This document shows, one piece after another, positions 21,382-25,516 of a stretch of 51,052 bases of DNA. Position numbers and translations under genes: made by a program. The stretch is from Firmicutes bacterium M10-2. Lineage in GTDB: Bacteria > Bacillota_I > Bacilli_A > Erysipelotrichales > Erysipelotrichaceae. Below the pieces are notes generated by a model. The model searched no databases and was not told the DNA's origin. It saw nothing but the letters and a program-made list of their open reading frames with translations. The stretch lies in assembly GCA_000403415.2 (NCBI GenBank), contig KE159697.1:1-51052 (forward strand). The letters run 5' to 3'. Every line of letters starts with the position of its first letter. Positions within the stretch are counted from its first letter, which is position 1.

Positions 21382-22704
21382 CTACTCCTCATCTTTTAAC
21401 AAAAACAAGGTTGCCACTGTCTTTTCATTGTATTGAGTCGAAATAACTCCTGAATCACTCATGCGTGAATATACACCCGCAAAGACGCCATTGTATGTAT
21501 ACAAACCTGTCAAATTCGAATACATCATCCAATGATCGTGATTGACTAAATCAATATTTTCCGATTTGAATGGCGGAATGTATTCTTGGGCAATGTAATC
21601 ATGATCCACAAAATCATAAAGTACTTTAGTCCAGCGATGCGAGTCAAGATCGCATCCCGCCCAAACCCCTTTCGCCGCATAGGAATCTTTCGGTTTAATG
21701 ATCCAGTTGTCCTTTTGTAAAGCAATCTTATTGGCCACCTCAAGCGTAAGATCGTACGTTTTCGGCAAATGCTCATCTAAAAAAGCACACTCTTCCTTTG
21801 TAAAATACGCCCTCATCTTTTCATTGAACAGAACTTGATTAATACACTTATGATGAACAATCTGCGTCTGGAAAGCTCCGATCAAAATGACATTTCCGTC
21901 CTTTACACATTGAATGAAATCCTCTTTCAGTTCGTCATAATGTTCCATGACATCTTTCGTTACTGCACGACGGTAAATCGCATCGAAAGTCGTATTCGTC
22001 TTTGAATTGACAAGCTTGCTTCCATCGTATTTCAGATCTCGGATATCGACCACTTCGCATACGAACCCCCGATCGCAAAACAACTTTTCAAACTGATACA
22101 ATTCACTCAAATACGCATTTTCCAAAAAGTCTACGATCGCAATGTGCGGATCAGTCTTGGCATTTTTGCTTGAAGCATAAGTCAGCAAGAACGCATCCAC
22201 CCACGCTTCCATGAGTTCCGGGATCTCCGCTTTCGGCTTCAACGCCATATATGCATTATTCAAATCAAGAAATTCATTCAACCGTCTATTTTCATTCATT
22301 GCACTCGTTCCATCCGTATTGAACTCGCAAAAATGAAACTCTTTCATGTTCTCGTCAAAAAACACATCAATACGGCAAATCGGAATCGGAATCGGATAAA
22401 GCGGCTCCAATAAAATCAGTTCTTCAAGCTCCTTTGAAAACGGAAACAGTTTTCGAATCTGTTGATCGGTACGATAGGCATCGATTACCTTTCGAAAAAT
22501 CGTATACGTCTGATCCACGATCCTCTCGAACCGATGCTTGTCTTCCTGATCGAAAAATTTAGGAATATGCAATGTTCTCGTATAATTGCCGTTTCCGGCA
22601 TTCAATTCACTATCCTGTATAGCCATTGTGATCTTGAGCGCACTCTCCTTACTTTCGATCCAATGACCATCTATATATTTCTTAAATTTCTTAAATTCAT
22701 CCAT
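21382..22704 (-). CDS. ATP-grasp ligase, glutathionylspermidine synthase-like
   Basis: A 440-residue protein that looks like an ATP-dependent carboxylate-amine ligase of the glutathionylspermidine synthase / circularly permuted ATP-grasp type. FHFCEFNTDGTSAMNE near residue 125 resembles the acidic substrate loop of that family, and NWIIKPKDSYAAKGVWAG near residue 345 resembles an ATP-grasp nucleotide loop. It starts three nt after the stop of a glutamate-cysteine ligase gene, so it probably adds a second group (an amine or amino acid) to gamma-glutamylcysteine. It is not a recognisable GshB. The product is unknown; this assignment is from motif recall only. Confidence 0.65.
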   Translation of the reverse strand: MDEFKKFKKYIDGHWIESKESALKITMAIQDSELNAGNGNYTRTLHIPKFFDQEDKHRFERIVDQTYTIFRKVIDAYRTDQQIRKLFPFSKELEELILLEPLYPIPIPICRIDVFFDENMKEFHFCEFNTDGTSAMNENRRLNEFLDLNNAYMALKPKAEIPELMEAWVDAFLLTYASSKNAKTDPHIAIVDFLENAYLSELYQFEKLFCDRGFVCEVVDIRDLKYDGSKLVNSKTNTTFDAIYRRAVTKDVMEHYDELKEDFIQCVKDGNVILIGAFQTQIVHHKCINQVLFNEKMRAYFTKEECAFLDEHLPKTYDLTLEVANKIALQKDNWIIKPKDSYAAKGVWAGCDLDSHRWTKVLYDFVDHDYIAQEYIPPFKSENIDLVNHDHWMMYSNLTGLYTYNGVFAGVYSRMSDSGVISTQYNEKTVATLFLLKDEE

Positions 22705-22707
22705 GTT

Positions 22708-23910
22708 CTATTTACTCTCTTCAAAAATATGATGGCGCATGTTCACCAATCGTTCAAACTTCATTAAATACTCTTGTTCTTGCGGACACAATCCCTGCTT
22801 TGCCCGTGCAATCATTTCTCTTAGCACATCCTGCAAAACCGAACCGTAAACCGGTGCATCCCATTGTTTTTCTTCAATCTGCGTTTTGTAAGTATGAAGT
22901 TGATCAATCGTGCAATCTTTCGCTTTATCCGTATAATATCTCACATTCCCTTGATTGTAAAACAGACCTTTGATCAACGCACAATACGCAATCACCCACT
23001 CCAAAGGCATACAGTCTGCCGAACGGATTTCGATAAATTGCTTAACCCGAACGAACGGAAAAACCATCGACAAGTAATGCGCAATCATTTCATCGGACCA
23101 TCCGTATTGCTCGGCAACCTCTTTACACGTCTTGTTGTTTGCGCTTGTCATTTGTTCGCCATCCCGTATTACGATCAAAGGAACATTTTCCACCCAGTCG
23201 GCATACGCTTCAAAACTCATCTCCGGGCTCAATGCTTTCGGCATATATCCCGTACGTTGCGGATCCGTATGCTCCCAAATCGAATCACGAAGAAAAACAT
23301 CCTTATTTTTTGTTCCTTCATAATACAAAGTATTGCTTGTCAGAAACGAAAACAGCAAATGCAAATAATTGGCCATCGCATACTTTCTTACAAAATCCGC
23401 TTCATCCGTATAATCGATCGACACATGAACGGCAGCCGTCCCTTTCATCATTTCATGACCACGTTCACCGCTTTTTTTGAACCATTTCTCCATCAGCTCA
23501 TACCGCTTTTTCATGATCCGTTCAACTTCATCGACAGAAACTGTCGGCAGACCACCCGAATAAACAATTTCATAACCATGATCATCCAAATATTTCAGGA
23601 TTGGTTTCATTGCTTCTCCATACCACAATTTGATTTGCTCAAGATCATCTGTATAGCGAAAAGAAAGCTCAAGCTGACAGCCCGGCTCCAAAGTCAACAA
23701 GGTCGTATCCGATTCAAGCGCAATCACATGACCTTCTTCAAAATACGCTTCATCGTAAAAGGGTCTTAGCGACATAAGCAATTTTGAAATCTCATCATAA
23801 GGCATAGGATGCCCCGTTTTTTTATCCAGAACAAAATGCTCGATCTCCACACCTAAAGCACGAGAATCTTTTTTTGCGCCTTTTTTGAAATACTCAACAA
23901 GCGGCATCAT
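22708..23910 (-). CDS. Glutamate-cysteine ligase (GCS2-like)
   Basis: A 400-residue glutamate-cysteine ligase family enzyme, which joins glutamate gamma-carboxyl to cysteine using ATP. The metal/glutamate motif GVEIEHFVLD (residues 20-29), the motif TLEPGCQLELSF near residue 73, the histidine region GTAAVHVSIDY near residue 153 and the late motif IEIRSADCMPLEW near residue 312 follow the plant/GCS2-type pattern. The start codon lies 17 nt inside the DJ-1-like gene. Being tightly coupled to an ATP-grasp gene, it probably provides gamma-glutamylcysteine for a two-step thiol pathway. Confidence 0.82.
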   Translation of the reverse strand: MMPLVEYFKKGAKKDSRALGVEIEHFVLDKKTGHPMPYDEISKLLMSLRPFYDEAYFEEGHVIALESDTTLLTLEPGCQLELSFRYTDDLEQIKLWYGEAMKPILKYLDDHGYEIVYSGGLPTVSVDEVERIMKKRYELMEKWFKKSGERGHEMMKGTAAVHVSIDYTDEADFVRKYAMANYLHLLFSFLTSNTLYYEGTKNKDVFLRDSIWEHTDPQRTGYMPKALSPEMSFEAYADWVENVPLIVIRDGEQMTSANNKTCKEVAEQYGWSDEMIAHYLSMVFPFVRVKQFIEIRSADCMPLEWVIAYCALIKGLFYNQGNVRYYTDKAKDCTIDQLHTYKTQIEEKQWDAPVYGSVLQDVLREMIARAKQGLCPQEQEYLMKFERLVNMRHHIFEESK

Positions 23911-24439
23911 AATAAATCGAAGCTTTCACTTGGTCGGTATGTTCTTTTCCGCAAAGTTTTTCCATGATCGCAAACGCGAACTCAATCGCAGCAGCAGCAG
24001 AAATTCCCGTAATCAGATTTCCATCCGTCACAGTGTATTCATAATGATACGTTCCGCCAAAATTTTCATTGAGTTCTTTGAAACATGTATAATTCTTTCC
24101 TTCAAGAAGTCCCATCTTTCCTAAAATTGTCGGCGCAGCACAAATGGCCGCCACAACCTTTTCATCCTTTACCACTTTCTCGATCACTGTTTTTACACTT
24201 TCGTTGTTTTCAATCTTTTTATAATGCGGTCCTCCCGGAATGATCAGACAATCGATCGAATCAAAATCGTATTCATCCATCGGTATGGCCGGAGAATATG
24301 TCACGCCAAATCGCCCGGTCACTTCATGCCCTTTTACACTGACAACATCCACATCGACATTTCCTCTTCGCAAAAGCGCAATCGGACCCATTGCTTCCAG
24401 CTCTTCAAATCCGTTATCCATTAAAATAGCACATTTCAT
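23894..24439 (-). CDS. DJ-1/PfpI family protein
   Basis: A 181-residue protein of the DJ-1/ThiJ branch. The glutamate-containing start DNGFEELEA (residues 8-16) and the nucleophile elbow AAICAAPTIL near residue 100, with a conserved cysteine, are typical of DJ-1-like glyoxalase III or deglycase proteins. The ATG at 24439 follows AAGAGGTGATTA and an extended -10 box (TGGTATACT). It leads a three-gene operon with the ligase genes, which suggests a role in handling reactive aldehydes or thiol stress. The enzyme activity itself is not proven by sequence. Confidence 0.85.
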   Translation of the reverse strand: MKCAILMDNGFEELEAMGPIALLRRGNVDVDVVSVKGHEVTGRFGVTYSPAIPMDEYDFDSIDCLIIPGGPHYKKIENNESVKTVIEKVVKDEKVVAAICAAPTILGKMGLLEGKNYTCFKELNENFGGTYHYEYTVTDGNLITGISAAAAIEFAFAIMEKLCGKEHTDQVKASIYYDAAC

Positions 24440-24552
24440 TTTAATCACCTCTTTGCATCCAGTATACCAAAAACATCCGAAATTTAACCGTGAAAGCATT
24501 TTGGGAGTGATTTTTTAATTTCCCCTTTATAATGGGGACAGGAGGAGATTTT

Positions 24553-25086
24553 ATGAATAATTTTTTTAGACAAAGTAATTCCAATTTGCGCATTTTCGCG
24601 TTAATATACATCGTTTTTGGATTCATTCTTTGTTTTTTCAACAAAAATATCTTGATCAATGCGGCAAGAATTATCGGAATCGTTTTGTTCGCTTATGGAG
24701 TCTATCAATTGTTTATTTATTTTTCTCAGCGCATTGCTGCCACGACCGTATCGCTTTTTAGCGGAATACCATGTACTTTGATTGGTGCGTTTATGTTCTT
24801 TTCTCCCCAATCGATCGTGGCCGTATTGCCGGTACTCGCCGGATTTATATTGATTGTCAACTCAGTCATGCAAATGCAGAAATCCTTTATATTAAAAGAC
24901 CATCACTATGACAACTGGATCTGGAATTTCGGAATTAGTCTGATCACATTGATCGGAGGACTCATCATCCTGTTACGCCCAATCCAAACGCTCGCATTCA
25001 TCTTGCAGCTTGTCGGTATTTGTTTGATCATAGAAGGAGTGATCATGCTCTTCAACGAACATGAAATCAACAAATACGTATCATAA
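24553..25086 (+). CDS. DUF308/HdeD-like membrane protein
   Basis: A 177-residue protein with six hydrophobic segments arranged as repeated helix pairs, the pattern of HdeD/DUF308 proteins (IFALIYIVFGFILCFF, ILINAARIIGIVLFAYGVY, and so on). AGGAGGAG lies six nt before the ATG at 24553. A -10-like TATAAT at 24528-24533 sits between CCCC and GGGG arms. The Rrf2 regulator follows after 16 nt, so both are probably one unit. In enterobacteria HdeD belongs to acid resistance; no function is claimed here. Confidence 0.8.
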   Translation: MNNFFRQSNSNLRIFALIYIVFGFILCFFNKNILINAARIIGIVLFAYGVYQLFIYFSQRIAATTVSLFSGIPCTLIGAFMFFSPQSIVAVLPVLAGFILIVNSVMQMQKSFILKDHHYDNWIWNFGISLITLIGGLIILLRPIQTLAFILQLVGICLIIEGVIMLFNEHEINKYVS

Positions 25087-25102
25087 TTCAAGGGGGTATT
25101 TC

Positions 25103-25516
25103 ATGAAAATCTCGGCAAAAGGCAGATACGCCATCCTAATGCTTGTTGATCTTGCCGAACACCATGATCAAGGATTCGTATCCTTAAAAGAAATCGCAAA
25201 TAGGCAAGGCATTTCCAAAAAATACTTAGAGCAAATCGTAATCTCGCTCAATCCGCTTCATTTGCTCGCATCCAACCGAGGATATCAAGGAGGGTACTTG
25301 TTACAAAAGGATCCCTCCACAGTATCTGTTTGGGAAATCCTAAACGAAACCGAAGAATCGGTCGTCCCTGTCACAGGTATGAGAAAAGAAAACTGTGCAA
25401 ATACTTGCGCAGCCCAATGGCTTTGGAAAGGATTAAACGATGTAACCGAAGAATATCTTCGGTCGATCACCCTGCAAGACCTTGTTGACCACGAAACAAA
25501 AGGAGCTCTGAATTAG
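25103..25516 (+). CDS. Rrf2 family transcriptional regulator
   Basis: A 137-residue Rrf2 protein. It has the winged helix with SAKGRYAILMLVDLAEH at the start, recognition region GISKKYLEQIV near residue 40 and wing GYQGGYLL near residue 70. In the dimerisation region there are two cysteines only (ENCANTC), short of the three-Cys cluster set of IscR, so an iron-sulfur cluster is uncertain; CymR-like cysteine-responsive regulators use no cluster. The ATG at 25103 follows AAGGGGGT. A glutamate-cysteine ligase operon lies just upstream on the other strand and could be a target. Confidence 0.88.
   Translation: MKISAKGRYAILMLVDLAEHHDQGFVSLKEIANRQGISKKYLEQIVISLNPLHLLASNRGYQGGYLLQKDPSTVSVWEILNETEESVVPVTGMRKENCANTCAAQWLWKGLNDVTEEYLRSITLQDLVDHETKGALN

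Follow-up and report, generated by a model that had tools for sequence, protein, structure and literature searches.

We analyzed a 51,052-nt stretch of the genome of Firmicutes bacterium M10-2 (GenBank assembly GCA_000403415.2, contig KE159697.1, positions 1 to 51,052; hereafter the window), in which three minus-strand genes encode a DJ-1-type protein, a glutamate-cysteine ligase (GCL) and an ATP-grasp ligase. The ATP-grasp protein is probably the second enzyme of a gamma-glutamyl-thiol pathway, in which an amine or amino acid would be added to the cysteine carboxylate of gamma-glutamylcysteine; both substrates are predicted ones. We favor this reading because GCL-ATP-grasp fusions occur on three branches of the ATP-grasp tree, a GCL of another class takes over in three genomes, the two genes co-occur, and 12 genomes that carry the ATP-grasp gene showed no GshB over the cut-off and no sign of the GshF ATP-grasp half. 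Comparative genomics gives good support to the predicted pathway class, and the same observations lend support to the first-pass annotation of this DNA, in which the operon was proposed to make a gamma-glutamyl-cysteinyl compound with a further group. The gene arrangement described there was also found: the three reading frames are present and represent genuine genes, with a 17-nt overlap of DJ-1 and GCL (23894-23910) and a 3-nt gap between GCL and ATP-grasp (22705-22707). The host genome (2.4 Mb, 99.8% complete) belongs to the Erysipelotrichaceae, a gut-type family. The three genes are as follows.

23894 to 24439, minus strand: DJ-1/PfpI family protein (PF01965), first gene of the operon, accessory, glyoxalase-III/deglycase-like
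22708 to 23910, minus strand: GCL of class 3 or plant type (GCS2), 400 aa, assigned by PF04107, TIGR01436 and plant GCL structures
21382 to 22704, minus strand: circularly permuted ATP-grasp ligase of the GSP_synth superfamily, 440 aa, proposed second-step ligase, assigned by PF03738 in orthologues, a profile match and catalytic residues

As expected from its family, the class-3 GCL would join the gamma-carboxylate of glutamate to cysteine. The ATP-grasp ligase would then phosphorylate the cysteine carboxylate of gamma-glutamylcysteine and couple an amino group to it, giving gamma-Glu-Cys-X. It would take the place that is usually filled by GshB or by the ATP-grasp half of GshF, but would come from the glutathionylspermidine-synthase (GSP) superfamily.

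The two enzymes are linked by fusions, GCL first, which were found in genome G031 (887-aa ORF), in a Lachnospiraceae record (860 aa) and in genome G088 (869 aa). The G031 fusion measures about 835 aa from its probable start, which overlaps DJ-1 as the window GCL does. In the ATP-grasp tree each of the three fusions falls on a different branch, and both main branches have a fused gene in basal position; the tree does not resolve the placement of G031 within its clade. The alignments and trees omit the match in G126 (9.4e-5, 100 positions) and a contig-end fragment in G015. As separate genes, GCL lies directly upstream of ATP-grasp in the window and in G001, G099, G109, G066 and G117, and on the Selenomonas ruminantium plasmid pSRC2 the two are one MATE-transporter gene apart. 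This intervening efflux gene (L040, 3201-4934) is a hint at possible export of the product or of a conjugate.

Three genomes (G003, G005 and G013) have the ATP-grasp gene, and a class-3 GCL was not found in them. They carry a standalone class-1 GCL elsewhere (420, 447 and 406 aa, respectively) that lacks the GshF ATP-grasp half. The class was confirmed by PF04262 in G005 and assigned by TIGR01435 in G003 and G013; the profile match in G003 runs slightly beyond the stop codon. Counting class-3 GCLs and TIGR01435 class-1 GCLs only (G009 and G011 do not count as GCL genomes here, their matches to TIGR01435 being confined to the ATP-grasp half), 6 of the 30 window-family genomes that are at least 90% complete have both genes, none has one only and 24 have neither (Fisher p 1.7e-6). 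The corresponding counts are 6 with both, 1 with GCL only, 1 with ATP-grasp only and 28 with neither for 36 window-family genomes (p 2.4e-5), and 6, 6, 1 and 47 for 60 genomes including family f2 (p 1.2e-4), all three p values being uncorrected for kinship. Identity matrices of GCL and ATP-grasp from 10 loci correlate with r = 0.957, a value reached in 0 of 2000 permutations, which shows common inheritance of the two genes and says nothing on function.

The ATP-grasp protein might instead belong to another pathway and be a mere neighbor of GCL. Its gene adjoins DJ-1 with no GCL alongside in G005 and G013, and adjoins neither in G003, as such a neighbor might; the fusions on three branches, the GCL swap and the co-occurrence speak against this explanation, which we regard as highly improbable.

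Enzymes known for the second step were searched for in the 12 carriers of the ATP-grasp gene, one of which (G015) is 68% complete. GshB (TIGR01380) was over its cut-off in none of the 12, with weak partial matches in 3, all of family f9; among 14 control genomes it was over the cut-off in 3. GshF (TIGR01435) was likewise over its cut-off in none of the 12, and the 3 carriers that did match were covered in the N-terminal GCL half only. This latter test rests on which half matched: the TIGR01435 cut-off was reached by 0 of 14 controls, and a 749-aa full-length match in G046 also stayed below it (616 vs 656 bits). A GCL was found in 11 of the 12 carriers. On these counts, identity with GshB or GshF was rejected.

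The GCL assignment made in the first-pass annotation held. The window protein passes PF04107 (91.9 bits against a gathering cut-off of 21), and plant GCLs are its best matches among solved structures (E ~1e-39, residues 4-374 aligned). TIGR01436, the plant GCL model, is matched at E 6.4e-51 with 173.2 bits, which misses the equivalog cut-off of 463.15, so that by this model the protein is a relative and no equivalog. It shares about 30% identity with alphaproteobacterial plasmid copies. The likeness to plant and alphaproteobacterial class-3 GCLs extends across nearly the whole length; the window GCL differs from them in having a GSP-type ATP-grasp protein as its partner. Judged by its family, it is a class-3, plant-type GCL predicted to make gamma-glutamylcysteine. 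A GCS2 enzyme that does not use cysteine and forms another gamma-glutamyl amide, so that the product is no thiol, was considered, since carboxylate-amine ligases also fall under GCS2-type models and the TIGR01436 score is below the equivalog cut-off. The order of matches argues otherwise, with plant GCLs on top, the cysteine-using EgtA next (1.5e-23) and YbdK-type ligases at just 1.5e-5, and the class-1 GCLs that substitute in three genomes point to gamma-Glu-Cys as the common product. We consider a non-cysteine GCS2 enzyme very unlikely.

The third gene had been called glutathionylspermidine-synthase-like and not GshB in the first-pass annotation. The first part of this description holds through the relatives of the window protein, by PF03738 and a profile match, and finds no backing in the window protein taken by itself. 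Full-length relatives in the window's family are 86, 68, 59, 58 and 53% identical to it, the closest being the protein of a genus-mate, Erysipelotrichaceae bacterium OPF54 (G001, BQKD01000001.1). When 7 orthologues were scanned singly with PF03738 (GSP_synth), 3 passed, all from family f9 (45.2, 39.5 and 39.5 vs 29.3 bits), and their matches run from about position 30 to 361-363 of 371. At E <= 0.01, CP_ATPgrasp_2 is matched by 7 of 13 family members and GSP_synth by 6. Profile-profile comparison aligned the family to E. coli GspS/YgiC/YjfC over 334 columns (E 7.5e-5, probability 62%). Searched against the PDB, the 13-row family profile found Cp1B (9cjn) as its top match (E 1.6e-4, about 90 profile positions, ATP-grasp core only); matches below threshold were trypanothione synthetase (0.06), a putative glutathionylspermidine synthase (0.17) and a GTPase (0.36). 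Pfam scanning found no second domain in the 440 aa of the window protein.

The second part of the description, not GshB, was borne out: the window protein matches neither TIGR01380 nor PF02955, and among 7 family members PF02955 is matched by one, at E 0.25. Identity with a known GshB or with an unrelated enzyme was looked for, and the outcome was negative. PRK12458, annotated glutathione synthetase, is weakly matched by 5 of 8 members at E <= 0.05 (6.9e-5 at best), in some cases over 50-75 residues; we ascribe this to the general likeness of ATP-grasp proteins. By these sequence comparisons, we assign the ATP-grasp protein to the GSP_synth superfamily, and it is neither GshB nor GshF. Proteobacterial plasmid proteins are nearer to the family (profile E 2.1e-27) than GspS is. 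These plasmid relatives (L041 4524-5801, L042 4494-5771, L043 3797-5203 and L075 3866-5266) are annotated as hypothetical or as "glutathionylspermidine synthase family", those of L041, L042 and L043 have no Pfam match at E <= 0.001, and the Methylophaga copy is found among copper-resistance genes.

Residues were compared in a 20-row MAFFT alignment that includes GspS, YgiC and YjfC, with 13 rows from the ATP-grasp family. Eight GspS residues, R316, D318, E330, N332, D334, K498, K533 and R598, which we take to be metal/ATP and catalytic residues, are identical in all 13 rows. The family shares with E. coli GspS (Gss) and YgiC/YjfC a circularly permuted ATP-grasp together with these eight residues, S337 (S in 13/13) and, for the most part, E391 (E in 11/13, D in one). 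Differences from GspS are seen at R538, which is Y or F in the family, and at K607, D610 and E392, which are not kept (D610 in 0/13 rows; R in YgiC and YjfC). The two alignment methods place D387 differently (on F193 with MAFFT, on D192 with hhalign), and both the family and YgiC/YjfC have a gap at D389, so that sequence gives no verdict on the spermidine pocket. Where GspS has D and T, all 13 rows have the invariant R222 and R246. A C-terminal motif differs by clade, being STQYNE in one and mostly SGLHGYY in the other (f9). The 440-aa window protein also lacks the amidase domain of GspS, for which YgiC (1161-bp gene) and YjfC (1164-bp gene) have no room either. YgiC and YjfC go by the name of peptide-spermidine ligases. 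GspS and YgiC/YjfC act on finished glutathione or on a peptide, unlike the window ATP-grasp protein, which is coupled genetically to a GCL.

Several results weigh against the second-step assignment and the family placement behind it. Pfam gives no significant match for the window ATP-grasp protein by itself, PF03738 included, the best being a chance-level Peptidase_S49 (E 0.23); the profile link to GspS at the values given above is modest; and AlphaFold2, run with three rows (window, L008 and L009), returned a low-confidence model (mean pLDDT 41.8). The tree is explained equally well by three fusions or by an ancestral fusion followed by later splits, so a single origin of the fused form is possible. 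Two incomplete genomes break the co-occurrence: G015 (68% complete) has the ATP-grasp gene, with no GCL found, and G030 (65%) has a GCL, with no ATP-grasp gene found. Lastly, family f2 of the same order includes four genomes with a standalone class-1 GCL and one with a GshF-like protein, all without the ATP-grasp gene; because of these five genomes, a GCL does not require the ATP-grasp protein.

For the acceptor group X, a small amino acid is most likely on our reading (glycine, which would give ordinary glutathione, or alanine, beta-alanine or serine), and an amine or polyamine less likely. Glutathione or a relative of it may be made here by an undescribed route. If the ATP-grasp enzyme adds glycine, it would be a non-orthologous replacement of GshB, a sub-case of the second-step reading. 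GshB over cut-off and the GshF ATP-grasp half are both absent from the 12 carriers, yet 11 of them have a GCL; the invariant R222 and R246 could hold a carboxylate; and homoglutathione synthetase is a Foldseek neighbor of Cp1B, the best PDB match (PMC12568646). The E391 position suits an amine too: E391 is key for spermidine binding in GspS, and E391 and S337 handle the spermidine amine (PMC6272389). Since the two clades have different C-terminal motifs, X may differ between them as well. Ordinary glutathione is in our view possible, with the balance somewhat on the side of doubt.

Were the ATP-grasp enzyme to ligate polyamines, as E. coli GspS and YgiC/YjfC do, the product would be gamma-Glu-Cys-polyamine. 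The profile match to these enzymes, the three f9 orthologues that pass GSP_synth and the kept S337 and E391 positions fit such an enzyme, as does spermidine synthase (PF01564), which is over cut-off in 4 of 5 f9 carriers. It is over cut-off in none of the 7 window-family carriers, 2 of which are just below, which speaks against a home-made, but not an imported, polyamine in the window's family and makes the former appear less likely. Carboxynorspermidine decarboxylase (nspC) is over cut-off in none of the 12 carriers, with weak matches in 7 (28-50 bits vs 409). The missing D610, the GspS residue that contacts spermidine at its far amine, also counts against a polyamine. It weighs little, since YgiC and YjfC have R there and since TryS and CfGspS lack D610 too (PMC2702004). 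We judge a polyamine product unlikely. We tentatively put forward, at not quite an even chance, an undescribed low-molecular-weight thiol gamma-Glu-Cys-X, made by a GCL and a GSP-type ATP-grasp ligase, in which X is not glycine and is not the same in the two clades, the Erysipelotrichaceae one that is linked to DJ-1 (STQYNE) and that of f9, which has mostly SGLHGYY and patatin and 2-hydroxyacid-dehydrogenase neighbors.

The first gene was rightly described as DJ-1-type in the first-pass annotation: it passes PF01965 (126.8 bits vs a cut-off of 26.6) and scores 130.1 bits with TIGR01383, just below the cut-off of 131.25. Its AAICAAP and GFEELE sequences presumably correspond to the DJ-1 nucleophile elbow and acidic residue. 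DJ-1 is clustered with ATP-grasp in 5 of the 6 readable window-family loci (window, G001, G005, G013 and G031, not G003; the G015 locus is cut by a contig end). It was not found at five f9 loci, in the Lachnospiraceae record, in the Selenomonas plasmid annotation or at G003, copies elsewhere in these genomes not having been searched for. DJ-1 as a required part of the pathway was rejected on its absence beside the core genes at these loci; it is a lineage-specific accessory outside the conserved core, and would act against reactive carbonyl or thiol stress.

The features upstream of the core genes are listed below.

24440 to 24472, minus strand: candidate promoter -10 and ribosome-binding-like sequence of the operon, found by eye
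24553 to 25086, plus strand: DUF308/HdeD-like membrane protein (PF03729), divergent from DJ-1
25061 to 25516, plus strand: Rrf2-family regulator, IscR/CymR-like (PF02082, 107.5 bits; TIGR00738)

The longest DJ-1 reading frame starts at 24499. We prefer the start at 24439 because the ribosome-binding-like GAGGTGA (24451-24445) and the candidate -10 hexamer TATACT (24466-24461), both found by eye, stand upstream of it. Similar elements are present upstream of the relative's DJ-1 gene in L008. The TATACT site was not among the matches of a consensus promoter scan, whose match count was at chance level. The DUF308/HdeD-like gene is divergent from DJ-1 in five loci (window, L008, L023, L024 and L025; PF03729 in the window and L024, the others by eye) and is followed by the Rrf2 regulator in the window and in L008 (3179-3598, by eye); the regulator was not seen in L023-L025. 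A near-palindrome, CCCCTTTATAATGGGG, with TATAAT at its center, lies at 24522-24537 just upstream of the DUF308 gene; L008 has no CCCC-N6-10-GGGG and gives no sign that CCCCTTTATAATGGGG is conserved. The f9 and related neighborhoods were surveyed in L017-L021 and L025, rows without a Pfam check being read by eye. Four of the 5 f9 loci have a patatin-like gene upstream of GCL, and in G005 such a gene adjoins ATP-grasp (Pfam-checked in L018, L020 and L025); a D-2-hydroxyacid dehydrogenase-like gene is downstream in 3 of 5 f9 loci (Pfam-checked in L018 and L020), and a gamma-glutamyltransferase is nearby in 2 of 5 (Pfam-checked in L018).

The ATP-grasp gene is rare and patchy in the sampled draws. 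Counting the window's own genome, matches were found in 7 of 60 relatives, 7 of 296 genomes of the class and 5 of 392 of the phylum (the draws overlap, and the Lachnospiraceae and Negativicutes genomes stand outside the sample). Family f9 has it in 6 of 8 genomes, at full length in 5. A single-protein search of genome contigs with the ATP-grasp protein gave two loci, and no relatives were found in the viral contigs scanned.

A side observation concerns the standalone class-1 GCL. Eight genomes have one, and in 5 of them (G003, G040, G045, G055 and G058) its neighbor is a class-II glutamine amidotransferase (PF13230); in G005, G013 and, by eye, G030 it is not. The loci are as follows.

L055 1999-5216, L056 1924-5141, L057 2085-5491, L052 4391-6403 and contig C119 of G040: class-1 GCL with amidotransferase

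A CPS-L-type ATP-grasp protein and an esterase come next in L056 (Pfam-checked) and L055 (by eye). We take the amidotransferase to resemble EgtC of ergothioneine synthesis, and the pair could represent a different gamma-glutamyl pathway with glutamate removal.

The nearest known systems each share part of this arrangement. GshF (GshAB) also has a GCL and an ATP-grasp unit in one chain or operon, in the domain order GCL then ATP-grasp; the window GCL and ATP-grasp protein each belong to another class than the corresponding GshF half. Cp1B, which heads the PDB profile matches, is likewise amide-forming: this ATP-grasp enzyme of the fungal E-64 pathway links trans-epoxysuccinic acid to an amino acid through an amide bond (PMC12568646). 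It differs as a fungal natural-product enzyme with another acid substrate and is matched over about 90 profile positions. Among the titles and abstract openings listed in searches of an open-access library, none was on a pathway of GCL with a GSP-type ATP-grasp enzyme. We regard the window protein, with its GSP-type ATP-grasp, as a real, and rare, candidate for the second step toward gamma-glutamyl thiols.

For many anaerobic Bacillota, no low-molecular-weight thiol is known to have been assigned. A genome with a GCL and without GshB or GshF is easily read as stopping at gamma-glutamylcysteine; the ATP-grasp family offers a testable candidate for the second step and marks genomes for thiol screening. 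If the assignment is true, it would add a further solution to the addition of the last residue, besides GshB, GshF and eukaryotic GSS, possibly with a new residue.

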